From: Syntrophus gentianae
GTDB lineage: Bacteria > Desulfobacterota > Syntrophia > Syntrophales > Syntrophaceae
Assembly: GCF_900109885.1 (NCBI RefSeq)
Contig: NZ_FOBS01000015.1
Coordinates: 1-64,000 of the forward strand
Reading direction: 5' to 3'
Length of the DNA: 64,000 nt
Under the pieces are notes generated by a model, which searched no databases, was not told where the DNA came from, and worked only from the letters and a program-made list of their open reading frames with translations. This document shows, in pieces, positions 46,591 to 59,952 of this stretch (its first letter is position 1; each line of letters opens with the position of its first letter). A program made the translations under genes and the position numbers.

Positions 46591-46725
46591 AGGATGATCC
46601 TTCTTCAAAAAATTGACCGTTACGCTACCTGAGATTGCGGATATTATCAAGTTGATTTGGGGAAGACCTTAAACAACGCCTTGACAGCAAAAAGAGAATA
46701 TGCTTTTCTGCCCTTACCATAGCGC

Positions 46726-46820
46726 ATAAGGGGAGGTCGTTATTTCGGCCTGAGAGTTCCGCAAGTTCGAGCGGATGACCCTCACAACCTGATCCGGGTA
46801 ATGCCGGCGGAGGGAGTGCA
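46726..46820 (+). promoter_or_regulatory. TPP riboswitch (THI element)
   Basis: The conserved thi-box blocks are all present and in order: GGGGAGG, CGGCCTGAGAG, ACAACCTGATCCGGGTAATG and CCGGCGGAGGGAG. It lies directly upstream of the thiamine operon and binds thiamine pyrophosphate. A strong terminator follows 10 bases later, so control is by premature transcription termination when TPP is abundant. Confidence 0.96.
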
Positions 46821-46829
46821 AGAGACATC

Positions 46830-46869
46830 AAAGCCCTTATGCCCGGAAATTCAGGCATAAGGGCTTTTT
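46830..46869 (+). terminator. Riboswitch-controlled intrinsic terminator
   Basis: AAAGCCCTTATGCC at 46830-46843 pairs perfectly with 46854-46867 and is followed by a TTTTTA run. It stands between the TPP aptamer and thiE, 14 bases before the thiE start, as expected for the OFF state of a transcriptional TPP switch. Confidence 0.93.
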
Positions 46870-46882
46870 ATTTGAGGTGAGA

Positions 46883-47545
46883 ATGTCCACAGTCAATACG
46901 CGCTCTCTGAAGGATCGCAGTCTATATCTCGTGCTGACGGAGGAATACGGCAACGGAAGGTCCCTGAGAGAAATCGCCGCAGAGGCGGTTGCCGGGGGAA
47001 TCGATCTCCTCCAGATGCGGGAGAAATCCAAATCGCGGGAGGAGCTTCTCCGGCTGGGGGGTGACCTGGCCGCCCTCTGCCGCAGGAACGGGGTGACTTT
47101 CATCGTCAATGACGATCCCCTCCTTGCTGCGGAGCTGGATGCCGATGGGGTCCATCTGGGGCAGGAGGACCTTCAGCGCTGTCCGGTCGATAGGGCGAGG
47201 GAGATTCTGGGGCGGGACCGCATTATCGGCATCTCGACGCATTCTGTGGAACAGTTTCGCCGGGCCAGCGGCCTGGATGCCGATTACCTTGCCTTCGGAC
47301 CCATCTTTCCGACCCGGACCAAGGACTATTCCATCGGGACGGCGGAGATCCGGGAAGTCCTGCGCCTGGCCACGAAACCCGTCGTCTTTATTGGAGGGGT
47401 CAATCCGGCCAATTTCGAGATCCTGCGAAAGGAGGGGGTCACCTTCGTGGCGCTGATCCGCGACATCATGCAGGCGCAGGACATTGCCGCCCGGGCGGGC
47501 TGGTACAAGGAGCAATTGAAAAAGGCAGGAGGAACGCGCAGATGA
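46883..47545 (+). CDS. thiE: Thiamine-phosphate synthase
   Basis: A 220-residue TIM-barrel enzyme joining hydroxymethylpyrimidine-PP and thiazole-phosphate to thiamine phosphate. Conserved blocks: GGIDLLQMREKSKSREELLR, the pyrophosphate site FIVNDDPLLAAELDADGVHL and GQEDL, then AFGPIFPTRTKDYSIG and FIGGVNPANF near the phosphate loop. The ATG at 46883 has GAGGTGA just upstream; a GTG six bases earlier is in frame. It is the first gene of the operon and overlaps thiS by 4 bases. Confidence 0.95.
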   Translation: MSTVNTRSLKDRSLYLVLTEEYGNGRSLREIAAEAVAGGIDLLQMREKSKSREELLRLGGDLAALCRRNGVTFIVNDDPLLAAELDADGVHLGQEDLQRCPVDRAREILGRDRIIGISTHSVEQFRRASGLDADYLAFGPIFPTRTKDYSIGTAEIREVLRLATKPVVFIGGVNPANFEILRKEGVTFVALIRDIMQAQDIAARAGWYKEQLKKAGGTRR

Positions 47546-47745
47546 GGGTGAGGATCAACGGCAGGGAGGAAAACCTGCCGGACGGGCTTGTGAGCCTGCA
47601 GGAACTCGTGGAAAACCGGGGGCTGGTCCCGGAGCGGGTCGTCGTCGAGGTGAACCTCCAGGTCATTTCCCGCGAGGACTGGCCGACGGTGCGCCTCCAG
47701 GAGGAAGATTCGATTGAAATCGTCAGTTTTGTCGGAGGGGGATAA
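47542..47745 (+). CDS. thiS: Thiamine biosynthesis sulfur-carrier protein
   Basis: A 67-residue ubiquitin-fold protein ending in VSFVGGG, the Gly-Gly tail that is adenylated by ThiF and thiocarboxylated before donating sulfur to thiazole formation. [20 protein letters not shown] is a normal ThiS N-terminus. The terminal Gly is followed directly by TAA, with no extension to be trimmed. Confidence 0.93.
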
Positions 47746-47746
47746 A

Positions 47747-48541
47747 ATGGAAGATCTGCTGGAAATCGGGGGCAAAAAGATCGCCTGCCGGCTTTTTGTG
47801 GGAACGGGCAAGTATGCCGGAAACGCCCAGATGCGGGAGGCCCTGCTGGCCGCGGAGGCCGACGTGGTCACTGTAGCCCTGAGGAGGGTCGACAGCGGCG
47901 CGAAAGCGGAGAACATCCTGGATTACATCCCGCCGTCCTGCACCGTGATGATCAACACCTCCGGCGCGCGCAATGCCGAGGAGGCGATCCGGATCGCGCG
48001 GCTCGCCAAGGCTGCCGGGGCGGGAAACTGGATCAAGATTGAGGTCATTGCCGACAGCAAGTATCTTCTCCCCGACAACCTGGAAACCCTGAAGGCGACG
48101 GAAACCCTGGTGAAGGAAGGCTTTGTGGTCTTTCCCTACATGAGCCCCGATCTGTCCATGGCCCGGCGGCTGGCCGACTGCGGTGCGGCGGCCGTGATGC
48201 CCCTGGGTTCGCCGATCGGTACCAACCGGGGGGTGAGGACTCGGGAACTGGTGGAGATTCTGATCCGGGAAATTCAGGTGCCGATCATTGTGGATGCCGG
48301 GTTGGGGAAACCCTCCGATGCCTGTTTGTGCATGGAGATGGGGTGCAGCGCCGTGATGGTCAATACCGCCATTGCCGTTTCCCCGAATCCCGTGGATCTT
48401 GCCCGGGCCTTCAGTCTGGCGGTAAAGGCGGGCAGGCTGGCCTACCGGAGCGGCATGCCCGAAAGGGCCGTCGAGGCGAGGGCTTCGTCCCCGCTGACGG
48501 GATTTTTAAGGGAGACCGACGACGAAAAGGTCCGTCCATGA
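47747..48541 (+). CDS. thiG: Thiazole synthase
   Basis: A 264-residue TIM-barrel that builds the thiazole phosphate from deoxyxylulose-5-phosphate, ThiS thiocarboxylate and dehydroglycine. Typical blocks: [47 protein letters not shown] (Schiff-base Lys in the IKIEV strand), [11 protein letters not shown] and GLGKPSDA. The ATG at 47747 is one base after the thiS stop and has GGAGGGG upstream. Its stop overlaps the thiH start (ATGA). Confidence 0.96.
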
Positions 48542-49653
48542 GCTTCTACGACCTCTATTGCCAGTACCGGGACCGGGAATGGGAAGGCGATTTTGCCGCC
48601 GTTTCGGAGGTGGACGTCGAAGGGGTCCTGCGGCGGGAACATCTGACCTTTCCCGATTTTCTCGTCCTCCTCTCTCCGGCCGCCGAAGGATTTCTGGAGC
48701 CAATGGCGCAGAAGGCCCGGGCACTGACGCTGCGTTATTTCGGCCGAACCATCCAGCTCTATGCGCCGCTTTACGTCTCCGATTACTGTGAGAATTCCTG
48801 CCTCTACTGCAGTTTCAGTGCGAAAAACCGGCGGGAACGGAGAAAACTCAGCCTCCCGGAGGTCAATGGCGAGGCGGCCTTTATTGCCGCGACGGGTTTG
48901 CAGCACATCCTTCTGCTGACGGGGGAGTCGAAAAAGAAAAGTCCCGTCGGTTATCTCCGGGATTGCGCGGGGGTGCTCAAAAGGCATTTCTCTTCGATCG
49001 CTATTGAAGTCTATCCCCTTTCGGAAGAGGATTATGCAAGCCTGGTGGCCCAAGGCGTGGATGGACTGACCCTCTATCAGGAAACCTACGATGAGAATCT
49101 CTACCGGGTGCTCCATCCCGCGGGACCGAAAGGGAATTTCCGCTACCGCCTGGAGGCCCCGGAACGGGGTGCCGCGGCCCGGATGAGACAGGTGAATATC
49201 GGGGCCCTCCTCGGCCTGGCGGATTGGCGAAGAGAGGTCCTGATGGTCGGGCTCCATGCCCGGTATCTCCAGGATCGCTTCCCCGATGTGGAAATCGGGG
49301 CCTCCGTGCCGAGATTGAGGCCCTTCGTGGGCGCCTTCCAGGGTTCTTGCGAGGTCAACGATCAAAACATCGTGCAGATTATTCTGGCCCTGCGACTCTT
49401 TCTGCCCCGGCTGGGCATCGCCCTTTCCACCCGCGAAGATTCCCGTTTACGCGATTGCCTGATTCCCCTGGGCATTACCCGGATGTCGGCCGGTTCAGCC
49501 ACCAGCGTCGGCGGTTATACGACTCCGGCGGGAGCGGAAGAAGCCCTGCCTCAATTCGAGATCGCCGACTCCCGGAGCGTTCCGGAGATCATGGCCCGAC
49601 TCCGGGAAAGGGGGTACGATCCGGTGTTGAAAGACTGGATACCGGGAATATGA
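48538..49653 (+). CDS. thiH: 2-iminoacetate synthase (radical SAM)
   Basis: A 371-residue radical SAM enzyme that cleaves tyrosine to give dehydroglycine for ThiG. The iron-sulfur motif is [10 protein letters not shown] (CxxxCxxC) near residues 84-91, and the C-terminal BATS domain contains [20 protein letters not shown] and [13 protein letters not shown]. ThiH instead of the oxygen-dependent ThiO fits an anaerobe. The start overlaps thiG and the stop overlaps thiF, each by 4 bases. Confidence 0.95.
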
Positions 49654-50609: not shown

Positions 50610-51581
50610 ATGAAGAAAATACTGTTAGCGACAATCATCCTGGGACTGCTGATGTCTTTCCAGGGCTGCTTTATCGGCGTCGACCCGAACTCGGACGGTT
50701 ATTATGGGGGTGAAACAGGCTACGAACCACCGCCCATCGGATTTGAGCAACCTCCGGAGGTGATCGCGATGCCCTATGCAAGCGATGTCTATGTCGTTCC
50801 GGATGTAAGTGTAGACTTGTTCTTCTGGGATGGCTGGTGGTGGCGCCCTTGGAATAATCAGTGGTATCGGTCACATAATTATAACGGGGGCTGGACTCGT
50901 TACAACAGCGTGCCGAGTTTTTATCATGATGTAGATCCGGGCTGGAGAGGAAATTATCGAAATCACAGTTGGCAGGGCAATCGGTGGAACTATGAAAGAA
51001 TTCCTAATCAGCGACTCCAACAGAACTGGAAAAACTGGCACAATAATAAATATTGGGAAAAAGAAAAGAGTTGGGGCGTGCAAGGTTTGAGACCCGGACA
51101 GCCGCGTCCCGGAGATCAACCGAGATACGATGTCAAACAGCATCGTTCCGACGATCAACCGAGATATGATGTGAAACAGCCACGCCCCGGAGATCAACAG
51201 AGATATGATGTCAAGCAGAAACGTCCCGGAGATCAACCGAGATACGATGTCAAGCAGCCGCGTCCCGGAGATCAACCGAGATACGATGTCAAGCAGCCGG
51301 GTCCCGGAGATCCACCGAGATATGATGTCAAACAGAAACGTCCGGAAGATCCACCGAAATATGATGTCAGAAAGACACGTCCGGAAGATCCACCCAAACG
51401 TGATGTCAAAAAGCCGCGGCCTGAAGATCAGCCCAAGCAGAATGTAAAGAAGCAAAATACTAACGATAAAGAGCCCAGAGGGATCAAGTCGGATTCCCAG
51501 AATAAGCAGCAAATAAAGGATAAAAAAGAAAAGGAAAAACGCGAAAAGAAGGAACAAGAAAACAAGGATATTTTGAGATAA
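50610..51581 (+). CDS. Exported protein with WxxW-rich head and nine 13-residue tail repeats
   Basis: A 323-residue protein of unknown function. The signal sequence LLATIILGLLMSFQGCF has a weak lipobox (FQGC), so lipidation is possible. Residues 60-150 are rich in Trp, Tyr, Arg and Asn, with WDGWWWRPWNNQWYR, resembling YXWGXW-type envelope proteins. From about residue 163 there are nine tandem 13-residue repeats of consensus Q-x-R-P-G-D-Q-P-R-Y-D-V-K, whose later units drift to E-D-P-P-K. The tail then becomes almost purely Lys/Glu/Gln, very basic overall. GAGG lies 7 bases before the ATG. Such a tail may bind anionic polymer or peptidoglycan, which is inference. Confidence 0.85.
   Translation: MKKILLATIILGLLMSFQGCFIGVDPNSDGYYGGETGYEPPPIGFEQPPEVIAMPYASDVYVVPDVSVDLFFWDGWWWRPWNNQWYRSHNYNGGWTRYNSVPSFYHDVDPGWRGNYRNHSWQGNRWNYERIPNQRLQQNWKNWHNNKYWEKEKSWGVQGLRPGQPRPGDQPRYDVKQHRSDDQPRYDVKQPRPGDQQRYDVKQKRPGDQPRYDVKQPRPGDQPRYDVKQPGPGDPPRYDVKQKRPEDPPKYDVRKTRPEDPPKRDVKKPRPEDQPKQNVKKQNTNDKEPRGIKSDSQNKQQIKDKKEKEKREKKEQENKDILR
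51122..51445 (+). repeat. 39-bp tandem coding repeat
   Basis: Roughly nine 39-base units encode the 13-residue repeats in the gene above. The core GATCAACCGAGATAYGATGT recurs nearly unchanged through 51113-51290, then diverges to CCACCGAAA forms. This suggests recent internal duplications at the 5' part and older ones at the 3' part. Confidence 0.85.
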
Positions 51582-51690: not shown

Positions 51691-52614
51691 TCACGGTTCA
51701 ATCTTTGCGTTCGGGTCTTTTGACCATTCCTGCATGGAGCCGTCGTAATTTTTTACATTTTTGTATCCGAGCGCTTCATGCAGGATGAACCACCAGGCAC
51801 TGGCTACCCGTCCCGTATCACAGTAGACGGTGATTTCCCGGGACAGATCGCTGCCCACAACGCCGGAGGCCATATTCTTCAATTGCGCCTCGTCTTTGAA
51901 AGTATAGCAGCATGTTTCAAGATGTTCGCCCGGCGGATACTTATCGAAGACCTGTGCTGTCGGGAGGTTGACCGCCCCTGCGATTCGGCCCGCCTTTGAG
52001 ACGAAGGGAAGCTTGTTCTTGCCGCTGAAAAAATCCGGCTCCCGGACATCGACAATCAAGGCTTTTCCCAGGTGAGCCATGACATAGTCTTTACTCGCGA
52101 AAACATTCCTGTTGAACGTTCCCTTGTAAGGCTTTGCCTTTGGTTTCACGGCCTCCGTTGACACCGTCCGTTTTTCCCTCAAAATCCACTTGTTGTGCCC
52201 CCCATCGAGGACACCGACTGTCTTGACTCCGGCGTATTTCAGCGTCCAGGCAACCCGGGTCGCGTTGACCCGGTCGGGACCCGATTCCGTTGCCCCGGCG
52301 ACAACAACGATCGAGTCAGGGCTGATGCCTGCAGAACTCAAGAGATCGACGAGTTCATCATCCTCGGGAAGCTGGTTGTCGATGTCCCCCCTTTTGACCG
52401 CCCACGTCCCGTAGAACAGGCTGATCGCGCCGGGAATGTGAGCGGTCCGGTAGTCTTCAACTTTCCGGATGTCCACGATGATCACTTTGGGATTATTCAG
52501 ATTCTCCTGCAGCCAATCGGTCGACACAATCGGTGAGAACTCCTCGGCAAGCGCCGCCAGGGGCATTAAAAGGAAAAGGATCAACAGAAGAGAAAAACAT
52601 TTAATCTTTTTCAT
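51691..52614 (-). CDS. Exported two-domain rhodanese-like sulfurtransferase
   Basis: A 307-residue protein with a clear signal peptide (MKKIKCFSLLLILFLLMPLA, cleavage near ALA) and two rhodanese domains. The C-terminal domain has the active-site loop VYCDTGRVASAWW with the catalytic Cys, near residue 265. The N-terminal domain has no Cys at the equivalent position (VVAGATESGPDRVNA), so it is structural, as in thiosulfate sulfurtransferases of the SseA type. It starts at 52614 with AAAGGAGG 5 bases upstream. It lies 37 bases downstream of the multiheme selenocytochrome gene. The export signal and the pairing suggest a periplasmic sulfur or selenium transfer role connected to the cytochrome, which is inference. 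Confidence 0.88.
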   Translation of the reverse strand: MKKIKCFSLLLILFLLMPLAALAEEFSPIVSTDWLQENLNNPKVIIVDIRKVEDYRTAHIPGAISLFYGTWAVKRGDIDNQLPEDDELVDLLSSAGISPDSIVVVAGATESGPDRVNATRVAWTLKYAGVKTVGVLDGGHNKWILREKRTVSTEAVKPKAKPYKGTFNRNVFASKDYVMAHLGKALIVDVREPDFFSGKNKLPFVSKAGRIAGAVNLPTAQVFDKYPPGEHLETCCYTFKDEAQLKNMASGVVGSDLSREITVYCDTGRVASAWWFILHEALGYKNVKNYDGSMQEWSKDPNAKIEP

Positions 52615-52651: not shown

Positions 52652-53893
52652 TTATCGGTTGATGGGTTTGGGGGTGAAAATCAATTCCTCGTTTGCCTTG
52701 GCTCCTCCTTTCAGGAGCGTTTCCTTTGTCAGGAAGCCGGTCCGGTCCTTATGGCAGGAATCGCAGGACCGGGTCCGGTCCGTGCGCTTCCTGATGTTGT
52801 GCGCCGGGGTATTCCAGTAATTCGGAAGGGCGTCGTAATGCTCCATGCGAATACCCGCCTTCACAAAGGAGTCCCGGACGGTGGGGACGATGCGGAGCGT
52901 CGTCACCTCTTTGCTGTTCCGGGGATTCTTCCCGAGGAAAAAGCCCGGTTCGGATTTGGCCCCGGTCCCTTCGTGACAATTGGTGCAGTTCCGATACTGG
53001 CCGCCGGCATGGCAGCCGTAGCAGCTCACCTTGCCGCGGTGAACGGTGTGGGCCGTTTTCGTCAGCGGCTTCTCCGAATGGATCGTCTGATGGCAACCCG
53101 TACAAGTCGGCCGATCTTTCACCTCCTGTTTCGTCAGATACATCGTCCCGTCGCCATGGAGCTCCTGCTTCTTGTGGCAGTCGAGGCACATCATCCCCTT
53201 CTGATAATGGACATCCGTCGTGCCGCCGTATTCCCCCGTATATTCCGGGTAGACGCGCCCTCCATGGCAGAAGGCGCAGGTCTTTCCTTCGTCCTTCTTG
53301 ACGAATTTATGCCCCTGGATGAGGCCCAGGCTTACTCCCGAAACAGACGGCGATTTCACGTGGCACCCGCCGCAGGAGGCGTGGCAGCTCCGGCAGGATT
53401 TTTCGAAGACATCCTTGTCGAAGGTTTTCAGCTCCGCCTGAGAAAACCTTCCCATGACCCCCTGCCTCTGGCCGATCGTCGTATAATGGAGGGATTTCCC
53501 ATACGTGGCGGCAATCTTCCCGTGGCATCGGCCGCAGGTTTCGAGCCTGTCCGATGGTCGGCACACGAGGCCCTTATGGGCGGATTCTTTTGTTGCACTC
53601 TCCTTGTCGCCCTTGTGGCAGGAACTGCATCCCTGGGAAAAATGGGGGTCTTTGGCTAGAAGTGCGGGGTCGACGAGATATCCCTTGTAATAATCTTCCG
53701 CCTTCACGGGCGGAGGCGCCCCCGCTCATCCCTCGCCTTCACCGCCGAGGGTGGGCGCCTTGACAAGGGTCTTCATCTTCTCGCCATCCGTATGGCAGGA
53801 AAGGCATTGATTGACAAAGCTTGCTCCCACCCATGCCGGCAGGAGGAAAAGGGAAAGGAAAAGCACTGAGAGGAAAAGACGATTCGTTTTCAT
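52652..53893 (-). CDS. Eleven-heme c-type cytochrome with in-frame UGA (selenocysteine)
   Basis: Read through an in-frame TGA, the gene gives 413 residues. A signal peptide (RLFLSVLFLSLFLLPAWVGA) is followed at once by a heme site C-L-S-C-H at residues 30-34. The TGA is codon 56 (53726-53728), in the context GEGEG-U-AGAPPP. Ten further CXXCH motifs follow: CSSCH, CGRCH, CRSCH, CGGCH, CAFCH, CLDCH, CTGCH, CYGCH, CTNCH and CDSCH. The ATG at 53893 has GGAGG 5 bases upstream. If translation began after the TGA (GTG at 53707), the protein would have no export signal, although c-type heme attachment happens only in the periplasm. A hairpin suited to a SECIS follows the TGA. It shares an operon with the exported rhodanese. 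Confidence 0.86.
53697..53714 (-). promoter_or_regulatory. Candidate SECIS hairpin of the cytochrome gene
   Basis: On the minus strand TCCGCC and GGCGGA form a perfect 6-bp stem with loop CGTGAA. The loop begins 18 bases after the UGA and has G at its second position. The size, distance and loop G match the bacterial SECIS consensus recognised by SelB. Confidence 0.65.
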
Positions 53894-54108
53894 GGCTTCC
53901 TCCAAATTCTGTGGTCAAGACCACTCAATCAAAAGGAGTTGAAAAGGATGCCGTCTGTTTCGGATGAAGAATTTTCTTCAGACTGTATGCCCGCTGCCGG
54001 GGGTGCGCAGCGACTTTCATGAATTTTATTGAATTTTAACAGTAATCCATACTTCAATCAATCTTTTTCATTACAGGGTGGGAAAATGGCAGGCGTTTGT
54101 GAAAAGGG

Positions 54109-56847: not shown

Positions 56848-59800
56848 TTGCGAAAGATTTCCCGGTTTCTGAAACGATACCCCGTCCGCTGGCCGCTGCT
56901 GTTTCTGGTGGTTGCCCTTCTCCTGGGCGTTCTTGTCTATGAAACCTTCTTCCTGAAGGTAGAAACGGACATTCTGAAATCGCTTCCCACCCACGACCCC
57001 GTTCTTGCGGATGCCCGGGCGGTGATCCGCCATCTGCCCTTTCAGGATCGCGTGGTGATCGACGTCACCTCTTCCGGGGAGAATCGCGAAGTTCTCGTTG
57101 AAGGCGCAGCCTTTATAGAAAAACGGCTCAAGGAAAGCGGTCTCTTCAAGGAGGTGGGGCTGGGGCCGATGTCGTCCCTGTTCCCCGAACTCTCCGGTTA
57201 TGTGGTGGATTCCCTTCCCGTCCTATTTGACCAAGAGACCCTGCGGAAAGAGGTCCTGCCCCTGTTGGAACCAGGCCGGATTCGGGAAACCCTGACGGAA
57301 AGCATGGAACGGCTTCAAGGGCTGGAGGGAATCGGACAGGCCGTGCTGATCGCCCGGGATCCCCTGGGCCTCCGGAATCTCATCCTGGCGAAACTGGCCC
57401 ATCTCGCCCCATCGACAAAGGCGGACCTCTATCATGGCCAGTTGATCGCCCCCGATGGGCGGCATGTGCTCCTGCTCGCCCAACTGGCCGGGTCGGCAAC
57501 CTCTACGGAGTTCACCCGCGCCATCCCGCCTCTTCTGGAGCGAATTCAGGGGGATCTCAATGCCCGCTTTGCCTCCTCGGGAACGGCCTTTACCCTGACG
57601 CCGGTCGGGGCATATCGCGCCGCCCTGGATAACGAATCCATCGCCAAAGGGGATACCCGGAAAGCCATCTGGCTCACGGTTTTCGGGATATCCCTGCTGC
57701 TTGTTCTGTCGTTTCCCCGACCATTGATCGGTCTTCTGGCCCTGGTGCCTTCAACGGTTGGGGCAGTTGGATCCCTGCTGGTCTGTTCCTTTTTCTTCGA
57801 TTCCCTGTCCCTGTTGGCGGTCGGGTTCGGGGGGGCCATCCTGGCTTTCACCGTCGATCTGGGGATCGCCTATCTCCTTTTTCTCGACCGTCCCTGTGAG
57901 ACTTACGGGAAAAGAGCCGCCCGGGAAGTCCGATCGGCGGAGATCCTGGCCGTGCTGACGACGGTCGGCGGATTTCTGCTCCTACTGCTCAGTGACTTTC
58001 AGATTCTGGCCCAGATTGGTCTCTTCTCCGCAGTGGGGGTGTTTATCGCCCTGCTGTTCGTTGCCTTCATTTTCCCCCGTCTTTTTCCCGTCATGCCGCC
58101 GGCTGGCAGGGGAGGTCACCCGGGACTGATCCGGGCAGTGGATGGGGCGGCCCTTTCCGGCGGCATGTGGAAGGCAGGCCTGGCCCTGATCTTTGCCGGG
58201 GCGATGGCTTTTCTGGCCCGGCCGGAATACCGGATCGATCTGCAGGCCATGAATTCCATGACCTCGGAAACCCATAAGGCGGAAAAGGCCGTCCAGGCGA
58301 CCTGGGGCGACATGTCCCGGAAGGTCTATCTCCTCCTGGAAGGGAAAACCGGGGAAGATCTCCAGAAACAAAGCGACCGTCTGTCCGATGTGCTGGCGGA
58401 AGAGGTGAGGGCGGGACGCCTGTCTTCCGCATTTCTGCCGTCGACCCTCTTCCCCGGGGAGATCTTGAGAAGCCGGAACCTTGAAGCCTGGCGGACTTTC
58501 TGGAGCCGGGAGCGCGTTGACGCCCTTCGTGCCGAACTGGGCCGGGCAGGGCAGGAACTGGGCTTTGCCTCCGATGCCTTCGCGCCCTTTCTGAAGCGGC
58601 TGAACGAAGCGCCCGCCGGACCGGGACCGATTCCGGACAAATATTACCCTCTCCTGGGGTTCGTCCCGGTTTCGGAAAATGGAAGTCGGTGGGTGCAGGT
58701 TTCCCCGGCGACACCGGGCCCCGGCTATGATGCAGCGTTCTTGGCAGAACAGTGCCGGAAAGCGGCAAATGTCCGGATCTTCGATGCGGGCCTTTTCAAT
58801 GACCGGCTGGGTGCGATTTTGGCCTCGCTCTTTCAGGAAATCGCCTGGATTGCCGGCATCGGCATCGTCCTCGTCGTTTTCTTCTTCTTTCTGGACTGGC
58901 GGCTTTCGCTGATGGTCCTCGCGCCGGTGGCCTTTGCCCTGGTCAGCACACTGGGAACGCTGAAGCTGATCGGTCATCCCCTGGACATCCCCGGGATCAT
59001 GCTGTGGGTCGTCATCCTGGGGATGGGGATTGATTACGGCATTTATTATGTCTGCTCCTATCAGCGTTACCGCGATGAACGCCATCCCTTCATGAGCCTC
59101 ATCCGCCTGGCGATTTTCCTCTCCGCGGCGACGACCCTGGTGGGGTTCGGGGTCCTGGCCCTGGCCGATCATGTCGTTCTCAAAAGCATCGGGCTGGTTT
59201 CCCTTCTGGGGATCGGCTATTCCCTGATCGGCACCTTTACGATCCTGCCTCCCCTGACCCGGCGGTTCATCGTTCCGCCCCGCCGTGATCGGGAAACCGT
59301 GGCGGCGGGATCGCGGCGTCACCTGCAGCGGACCGTCCGGCGATATCGCTTTCTGGAGACCTATGCCCGCATGTTCGCCCGGTTCAAGATCCTCTGCGAT
59401 CCCATGTTCCCCCGGCTGGCCGGTCTGGTCTCCTCCCCGGAGCGGATTGTGGATATCGGAACGGGTTACGGCGTCCCCGCAGCCTGGCTGCTGGAGCTCT
59501 ATCCCGAGGCGAGGGTCTACGGCCTCGACCCGGATGAAGAGCGGGTACGCGTCGCTTCCTGGGCCATCGGCGACCGGGGGACTGCGGAAACCGGCCGCGC
59601 CCCGGATCTTCCCCATCTTCCGGAACCGCCGGATACGGCGCTGATGCTGGACATGATCCACCTCCTTTCCGATGGGGATCTCAAGCTCACCCTCCAGCGG
59701 CTCTTTGCGTCCCTCAAGCCTGGTGGACGGCTGATTGTCCGCGTGACGGTCCCCTCGGAAAAGGCCCCGCCCTGGGAAAGGATGATCGAAGACCGCATCC

Positions 59801-59952
59801 GCCTGCGCTTTCAAGGCCTCAAACCCTGGTATCGATCTATTGAAGAGATGAGAAGGCATCTGGCGGAGGCCGGCTTTGCCGTCCTGCTTCAGGAACCCAC
59901 GGCGCCGGGGCGGGAGGGGATCTGGTTTGTCGCCGAAAAGGAATCCGGATGA
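56848..59952 (+). CDS. MMPL/RND-type exporter fused to a C-terminal SAM methyltransferase
   Basis: A 1034-residue fusion. Residues 1 to about 815 are an RND exporter of the MMPL type in two halves. Each half has a long periplasmic domain after the first helix, and then clusters of about five helices; GGAILAFTVDLGIAYLLFLD and GMGIDYGIYYVCSYQRYRDE are the paired conserved transmembrane motifs. Residues from about 845 form a class I methyltransferase: motif I RIVDIGTGYGVPAAWLLELY, then YGLDPDEERV and LKPGGRLIVRVT. MMPL exporters of this kind move lipids or polyene-like products. The fused methyltransferase suggests modification of the cargo during export. Start is TTG at 56848. It overlaps the acyltransferase gene by 4 bases. 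Confidence 0.88.
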   Translation: MRKISRFLKRYPVRWPLLFLVVALLLGVLVYETFFLKVETDILKSLPTHDPVLADARAVIRHLPFQDRVVIDVTSSGENREVLVEGAAFIEKRLKESGLFKEVGLGPMSSLFPELSGYVVDSLPVLFDQETLRKEVLPLLEPGRIRETLTESMERLQGLEGIGQAVLIARDPLGLRNLILAKLAHLAPSTKADLYHGQLIAPDGRHVLLLAQLAGSATSTEFTRAIPPLLERIQGDLNARFASSGTAFTLTPVGAYRAALDNESIAKGDTRKAIWLTVFGISLLLVLSFPRPLIGLLALVPSTVGAVGSLLVCSFFFDSLSLLAVGFGGAILAFTVDLGIAYLLFLDRPCETYGKRAAREVRSAEILAVLTTVGGFLLLLLSDFQILAQIGLFSAVGVFIALLFVAFIFPRLFPVMPPAGRGGHPGLIRAVDGAALSGGMWKAGLALIFAGAMAFLARPEYRIDLQAMNSMTSETHKAEKAVQATWGDMSRKVYLLLEGKTGEDLQKQSDRLSDVLAEEVRAGRLSSAFLPSTLFPGEILRSRNLEAWRTFWSRERVDALRAELGRAGQELGFASDAFAPFLKRLNEAPAGPGPIPDKYYPLLGFVPVSENGSRWVQVSPATPGPGYDAAFLAEQCRKAANVRIFDAGLFNDRLGAILASLFQEIAWIAGIGIVLVVFFFFLDWRLSLMVLAPVAFALVSTLGTLKLIGHPLDIPGIMLWVVILGMGIDYGIYYVCSYQRYRDERHPFMSLIRLAIFLSAATTLVGFGVLALADHVVLKSIGLVSLLGIGYSLIGTFTILPPLTRRFIVPPRRDRETVAAGSRRHLQRTVRRYRFLETYARMFARFKILCDPMFPRLAGLVSSPERIVDIGTGYGVPAAWLLELYPEARVYGLDPDEERVRVASWAIGDRGTAETGRAPDLPHLPEPPDTALMLDMIHLLSDGDLKLTLQRLFASLKPGGRLIVRVTVPSEKAPPWERMIEDRIRLRFQGLKPWYRSIEEMRRHLAEAGFAVLLQEPTAPGREGIWFVAEKESG

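Follow-up and report, generated by a model that had tools for sequence, protein, structure and literature searches.

A candidate family of eleven-heme cytochrome selenoproteins in Desulfobacterota, usually encoded beside an exported rhodanese

A cytochrome gene in Syntrophus gentianae carries an in-frame TGA, which raises the question of whether this codon is read as selenocysteine (Sec) and, if it is, what a Sec residue might do in a multiheme cytochrome. The gene lies in a stretch of 64,000 nucleotides, called the window here (contig NZ_FOBS01000015.1, positions 1 to 64,000). The frame 53893-52652 on the minus strand holds 11 CXXCH motifs, one before the TGA and ten after it, so that codon 56 is located between heme 1 and heme 2, with the Sec 22 residues past heme 1. 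From its translation, the window protein has both an export signal and several CXXCH motifs, the marks of a multiheme c-type cytochrome. Without read-through, the longest downstream open reading frame would begin inside the gene, with GTG (53707) as its start codon, and would lack a signal peptide. An earlier note on this DNA had described the gene as one cut short by start calling, and we agree: a conventional method would pick this GTG and would report a product lacking both export signal and heme 1. The features of the locus are collected in Table 1.

Table 1. Features of the cytochrome and rhodanese locus, in window positions.
Feature	Position	Strand	Remarks
Undecaheme c-type cytochrome selenoprotein (putative), CDS	52652..53893	-	413 aa, TGA at codon 56 very probably read as Sec
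In-frame TGA, Sec codon 56	53726..53728	-	Family motif GEGUAGAPPPVxAEE; aligned TGA in homologues
Predicted signal peptide, about residues 1-24	53822..53893	-	5' of the TGA; judged by eye from the translation
Heme 1 motif CLSCH (residues 30-34)	53792..53806	-	Sole CXXCH before the TGA; invariant among 104 homologues
Shine-Dalgarno GGAGGA of the full-length frame	53898..53903	-	Read from the sequence
SECIS-like hairpin TCCGCC/GGCGGA, loop CGTGAA	53697..53714	-	12-29 nt past the TGA; codon choice and compensatory changes
Exported tandem rhodanese, active-site loop CDTGRV	51691..52614	-	307 aa; 37 bp downstream of the cytochrome; conserved partner

Homologues were gathered from matches with at least 330 aligned residues and identical sequences were kept once, which left partial and frameshifted copies (e.g. 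L070, L072, L149, L166) outside the set and gave 104 distinct sequences. The earlier note had named position 56 as the place where homologues ought to show Sec or Cys, and the aligned codon was found to be TGA in 100 of the 104, with Ala, Pro, Trp and Tyr in one each and Cys in none. Bacterial selenoproteins usually have Cys-containing homologues, which are not required. The heme motifs and nine further histidines were near-invariant across the same set (lowest 101/104). Around the Sec the sequences fall into three clades, with GEGUAGAPPPV in the main clade, GEGUGGxxAPLEP in clade 2 and VAGUGVSAPQVRG in clade 3. A FastTree phylogeny with midpoint rooting gave Sec as the inferred ancestral state with four separate changes; these losses are scattered over the tree, with low support at some of the nodes there.

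The family is common. An order-wide search matched 65 of 155 genomes at E 1e-15, and 62 of the 65 held the internal TGA; the three without the TGA form carried Ala (G132), Trp (G016) or fragments (G149). In a sample drawn from the whole phylum, the family profile matched 48 of 395 genomes at E 1e-25. Carriers include records named Syntrophus, Smithella, Pelobacter and Geobacter. The frame is N-terminally extended with extra hemes in Smithella-type loci, reaching 17 CXXCH in L116; such extended Sec cytochromes were seen in L053, L059, L061, L062, L066, L071 and L116, where they are located after NrfD and 4Fe-4S genes.

A hairpin downstream of the TGA had been proposed as a SECIS element, and the family gives this proposal support from codon choice and covariation. 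In the main clade (59 sequences), 5.5 of the 6 pairs are formed on average, against 3.2 in random synonymous recodings with family codon use, and the 6 pairs of the window hairpin were attained in 1.2% of synonymous recodings. This recoding test took the 59 main-clade and 5 divergent sequences, with clade 3 left out. The Pro codon at hairpin nucleotides 10-12 is CCT in 53 of 58 sequences, compared with 204 of 1244 Pro codons in a pool over the family genes that includes this same codon. For clade 2, an alignment of 23 sequences, which left out clade 3 and L150, had 95.0% of its 161 cells paired and both sides changed in 13 cells versus 3.2 in shuffles. Its covariation score of 0.350 against 0.152 in shuffles was attained by 0/500 of them, and sliding the partner abolishes the signal, with the caveat that kin sequences can beat shuffles without any structure. 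The count of pairs with double-sided changes (4) was matched by 60/500 shuffles, and the count of additional pair types by 48/500. Some of the double changes in clade 2 swap amino acids, APLEP versus EPLAP, so that the encoded residues change in step with the pairing of the RNA. A loop GU is present in 59/59 main-clade sequences and is not independent evidence, because it coincides with a Val codon.

For the window alone, folding gives an ambiguous picture. Folded alone, its 48 nt prefer a competing hairpin directly after the TGA, with a z of -0.40 that is no better than shuffles, so the single-sequence fold fails as proof of a SECIS. Omitting the 6 nt next to the TGA, which a paused ribosome might mask, turns the prediction into the SECIS-like hairpin (-10.9 kcal/mol). 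In two homologues that have exchanged the Sec codon, L098 (Ala form) and L099 (Trp form), the hairpin sequence is retained past the former Sec codon, as if the loss were recent.

Machinery for Sec insertion was found in nearly all carriers. The window's genome has a tRNA-Sec at 77.4 bits and a SelB at 382 bits. tRNA-Sec was detected at E 1e-12 in 49 of the 62 TGA-form genomes of the order; a SelB search covering the remaining 13, plus G132, found SelB over the cut-off in 12 of the 13. One or the other is thus present in 61/62, and the exception (G060, 68% complete) has neither. An enrichment of tRNA-Sec in carriers would have been a proof of Sec, and it fails, the whole order being rich in Sec machinery (49/62 carriers vs 122/155 genomes of the order). 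The machinery therefore supports the Sec reading without singling out the cytochrome gene. Three genomes with a non-Sec form were tested as well: tRNA-Sec is present in two, G016 (Trp) and the genome of L073 (Pro), and in the Ala-form genome G132 (74% complete) tRNA-Sec was not over the cut-off and SelB was not found. Since two of the three have tRNA-Sec, loss of the Sec is not explained by loss of the machinery.

Because the TGA is aligned in nearly every homologue, the hairpin is under constraint, and tRNA-Sec and SelB are present, the window protein is very probably a selenoprotein, and would belong to a new selenoprotein family of Desulfobacterota; on this comparison of sequences, the claim that the TGA encodes Sec comes close to shown. 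Two other accounts of the codon are far less probable. The UGA might be read as Trp by suppression, as the TGG at this site in one homologue (L099) could suggest, or it might act as a regulated stop, giving a short peptide with one heme. Both are hard to reconcile with the covarying hairpin, with the Sec machinery of the carriers, and with Ala, Pro and Tyr as the other replacements; the peptide ahead of the TGA, moreover, has about 30 residues beyond the signal. We consider this pair of readings very improbable. A few loci do contain fragments or an extra stop (e.g. L132), as a pseudogene or a sequencing error would, and this account has next to no probability: it is ruled out by the recurrence of the same TGA together with near-invariant heme motifs.

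What the Sec may do is suggested in part by the neighbouring genes. Neighbours were counted for 105 distinct cytochromes, 97 of which had at least 1.2 kb of downstream sequence. In 75 of the 97 loci the start of a rhodanese gene lies no more than 1 kb downstream, and in 78 no more than 6 kb; among the 22 loci without a rhodanese inside 1 kb, some offer only about 1.5 kb of sequence. Examples with the rhodanese partner occur in all three clades. Further neighbours were grouped as sequence clusters, whose numbers do not imply orthology of their members. Fifteen loci have a 7-heme protein of roughly 600 aa, 12 have a second rhodanese, and 17 have a 9-heme protein whose membrane part is cytochrome-b561-like. 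A ResB protein is counted 15 times and NrfD and 4Fe-4S proteins 10 times each, the last two upstream in Smithella-type loci. Clade 2 members often adjoin a cytochrome b561 (PF01292). In one clade 2 locus, a 5-heme paralogue without Sec adjoins the Sec cytochrome (L102:4165-4764, minus strand). One other place in the window's genome was inspected, a weak-match locus on C7. A protein encoded there matches the 9-heme/cytochrome-b family in part, and in its vicinity a second rhodanese and a relative of the 7-heme protein were not found.

Other parts of the window hold features of separate interest. A TPP riboswitch (46719-46831, plus strand), the only Rfam match at gathering score, lies just upstream of genes that read as thiE/thiG/thiH-like thiamine synthesis genes (46877-49653). 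On the plus strand at 50610-51581 is a protein with a tandem repeat of the type PGDQPRYDVKQ, for which Pfam and NCBIfam returned no match. At 56848-59952, also on the plus strand, a frame of 1034 aa reads as an RND/MMPL-type exporter-like protein with a methyltransferase-like C-terminal part.

The earlier note had also mentioned Sec-containing cytochromes next to rhodanese genes in Geobacter-type electron conduits. Such a pairing exists: passages of two papers describe the Geobacter Sec cytochrome ExtKL clustered with the rhodanese ExtH, and an extI mutant impaired in selenite and tellurite reduction (PMC5877670, PMC6148476). The literature passage nearest in kind to the window protein likewise concerns GSU2937/2936, that is ExtKL (PMC1914089). 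ExtKL (NF040886) resembles the window protein in being an exported multiheme c-type cytochrome of the same phylum with one Sec and a rhodanese in its cluster (ExtH in Geobacter extHIJKL). It differs in having five hemes and a Sec past the last of them, in NKAGHxIPDGUPTPNR, whereas the window family has 11 hemes, and its Sec falls after the first and before the second of them, in GEGUAGAPPP.

The searches place the window protein outside the ExtKL family. NF040886 gave no match in the window's genome at E 0.001 and exceeded its cut-off in 0/155 genomes of the order, while as a positive control it matched 40 of the 395 phylum genomes at E 1e-30, 39 of them over the cut-off. A search of two genomes alone had also returned no ExtKL match, which by itself shows nothing. 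Of 12 ExtKL loci that were fetched, ten had the Sec after the last heme, in IPDGUPTPNR, and in two another frame was picked. A comparison of the ExtKL and window family profiles aligned 25 columns, around one heme motif only. With no model match, another Sec position and motif, and no profile similarity past that heme motif, identity with ExtKL is rejected. G421 is the sole genome of the 395 with both families; about 4.9 would be expected from 40 and 48 carriers, uncorrected for phylogeny.

Two PDB entries (9wt8/9wt9) are named "multiheme cytochrome c selenoprotein (MccSep)" and carry U325A. From the residue number U325 this protein is probably ExtKL, and the literature search found no paper on MccSep. 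A 2026 inventory of prokaryotic selenoproteins gives ExtKL, GSU2204 and octaheme tetrathionate reductase as heme-type families, and the window family does not appear in its passages and the portion of its section 7 that we consulted (PMC13188914). The octaheme tetrathionate reductase (TIGR04315), like the window family, is a multiheme cytochrome, and the same passages report a Sec form of it; TIGR04315 was absent among the matches listed for the window cytochrome P0001 (E up to 1) and for three other homologues (E up to 0.01).

Searches of Pfam, NCBIfam and the PDB returned heme-repeat matches only, and for the window protein and the three other homologues no NCBIfam model covering the cytochrome family was found. 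Foldseek found no PDB structure with an E of 0.001 or lower, phmmer against the PDB with a clade 2 member gave nothing significant, and no match was found in the plasmids searched. The superfamily of the octaheme sulfite reductase MccA and NrfA shows weak local matches around HYQKGMMCxDCH. MccA was the best VIA-align row and the only PDB match there (Z 2.3 over 200 residues), which is too weak for a claim of kinship, and the window protein differs from MccA/NrfA in its eleven hemes, its Sec and its rhodanese partner.

Polysulfide and thiosulfate reductases of the Psr/Phs type combine an NrfD-type membrane subunit and a 4Fe-4S subunit with a molybdopterin catalytic subunit. The Smithella-type clusters resemble them in their NrfD-type and 4Fe-4S subunits. 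They differ in that the annotated conserved clusters include no molybdopterin catalytic subunit and have the Sec cytochrome as the large partner instead. Multiheme cytochromes with Sec are already known, and the window family, as far as sequence can tell, is set apart from them by how many hemes it has, where its Sec lies and the sequence around it; no prior description of it was found in open-licence papers.

The predicted structure agrees with the earlier note that the Sec sits in a flexible linker between heme 1 and heme 2, as the linker has a pLDDT of about 40 where the average is 74, and there is no Cys next to the Sec, as was also claimed. Near-invariant histidines outside the CXXCH motifs number nine in the 104 homologues (84, 106, 136, 195, 229, 246, 282, 285 and 365). 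Nine conserved histidines for 11 hemes may leave up to two hemes without a conserved distal His.

We put these observations together as follows. The UGA would be decoded by SelB and tRNA-Sec at the hairpin just downstream. The neighbouring exported rhodanese would then give sulfane sulfur, as a persulfide, to the Sec selenolate, and a flexible Gly/Pro-rich arm would present the resulting Se-S group to the chain of hemes. There it would be reduced to sulfide by electrons drawn from the quinone pool, with NrfD/FeS or cytochrome-b type membrane partners, depending on the clade, as their entry point; alternatively, the flow would run the other way. The rhodanese neighbour points to sulfane sulfur, the NrfD/FeS or cytochrome b neighbours point to the quinone pool, the low pLDDT of the Gly/Pro-rich linker is suggestive of a mobile arm, and the lack of Cys forms suggests selenium-specific chemistry. 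This lack also cuts the other way: a Sec that merely relayed sulfur would be expected to have Cys variants, and none was seen in the 104. Two further points weigh against the proposal: 22 of the 97 loci have no rhodanese inside 1 kb, and the one other place inspected in the window's genome offered only the partial cytochrome-b-type match as a candidate quinone partner.

Read-through as Sec, export, the 11 hemes and the rhodanese partner are supported by comparison of homologues. The best explanation taken whole, a new family of periplasmic 11-heme Sec cytochromes passing electrons between quinones and rhodanese-borne sulfur, has in our estimate a probability of about 0.55. Sulfur chemistry with the rhodanese is by itself more likely than not, and the persulfide-arm step is a tentative element that may well be wrong. 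The most specific form of the proposal would be an undescribed respiratory sulfur reductase (or oxidase) with a heme wire, a catalytic Sec persulfide on a swinging arm, dedicated loading by the rhodanese, lineage-specific quinone modules and a function closed to Cys; this form we regard as possible and rather unlikely.

The main rival to electron transfer with rhodanese-borne sulfur has the Sec bound to a heme iron, as a ligand with a structural or redox-tuning role in a selenolate-ligated c-heme for which Cys is not equivalent, with the rhodanese serving sulfur supply or maturation elsewhere. The earlier note had offered a heme ligand or a covalent link as roles for the Sec; evidence for a covalent link was not found, and the shortfall of conserved histidines relative to hemes makes a heme ligand possible. 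So do the distance of 22 residues from heme 1 and the lack of Cys replacements. Ligands, however, usually sit in ordered structure, whereas the Sec linker is predicted at low confidence, as if disordered, and the missing positions may be taken by His, Met or Lys residues that are not conserved. On balance we think this role unlikely. Less likely still, and third in rank, is a reductase of selenite, tellurite or another oxyanion that would be the functional counterpart of the ExtHIJKL cluster. ExtKL, likewise a multiheme cytochrome with Sec, has ExtH as its rhodanese partner, and the extI phenotype in the passages cited above (PMC5877670, PMC6148476) concerns just such oxyanions. The rarity of genomes with both families (1/395, about 4.9 expected) also looks as if the two were alternatives, although phylogeny may explain it. 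Against this rival, the sequence relation to ExtKL is limited to one heme motif, and no porin was seen among the annotated conserved neighbour clusters. Electron transfer between quinones and rhodanese-borne sulfur stays our preferred reading.

Searches for selenoproteins rely on Sec/Cys pairs and on models of known families, and a family without a Cys form escapes both. Standard start calling truncates such genes, and the export signal and heme 1 are lost with the missing part. The window family would be a second, apparently unrelated instance of a rhodanese partnered by a Sec-containing multiheme cytochrome, and this suggests that selenium may be used recurrently in periplasmic sulfur electron transfer.
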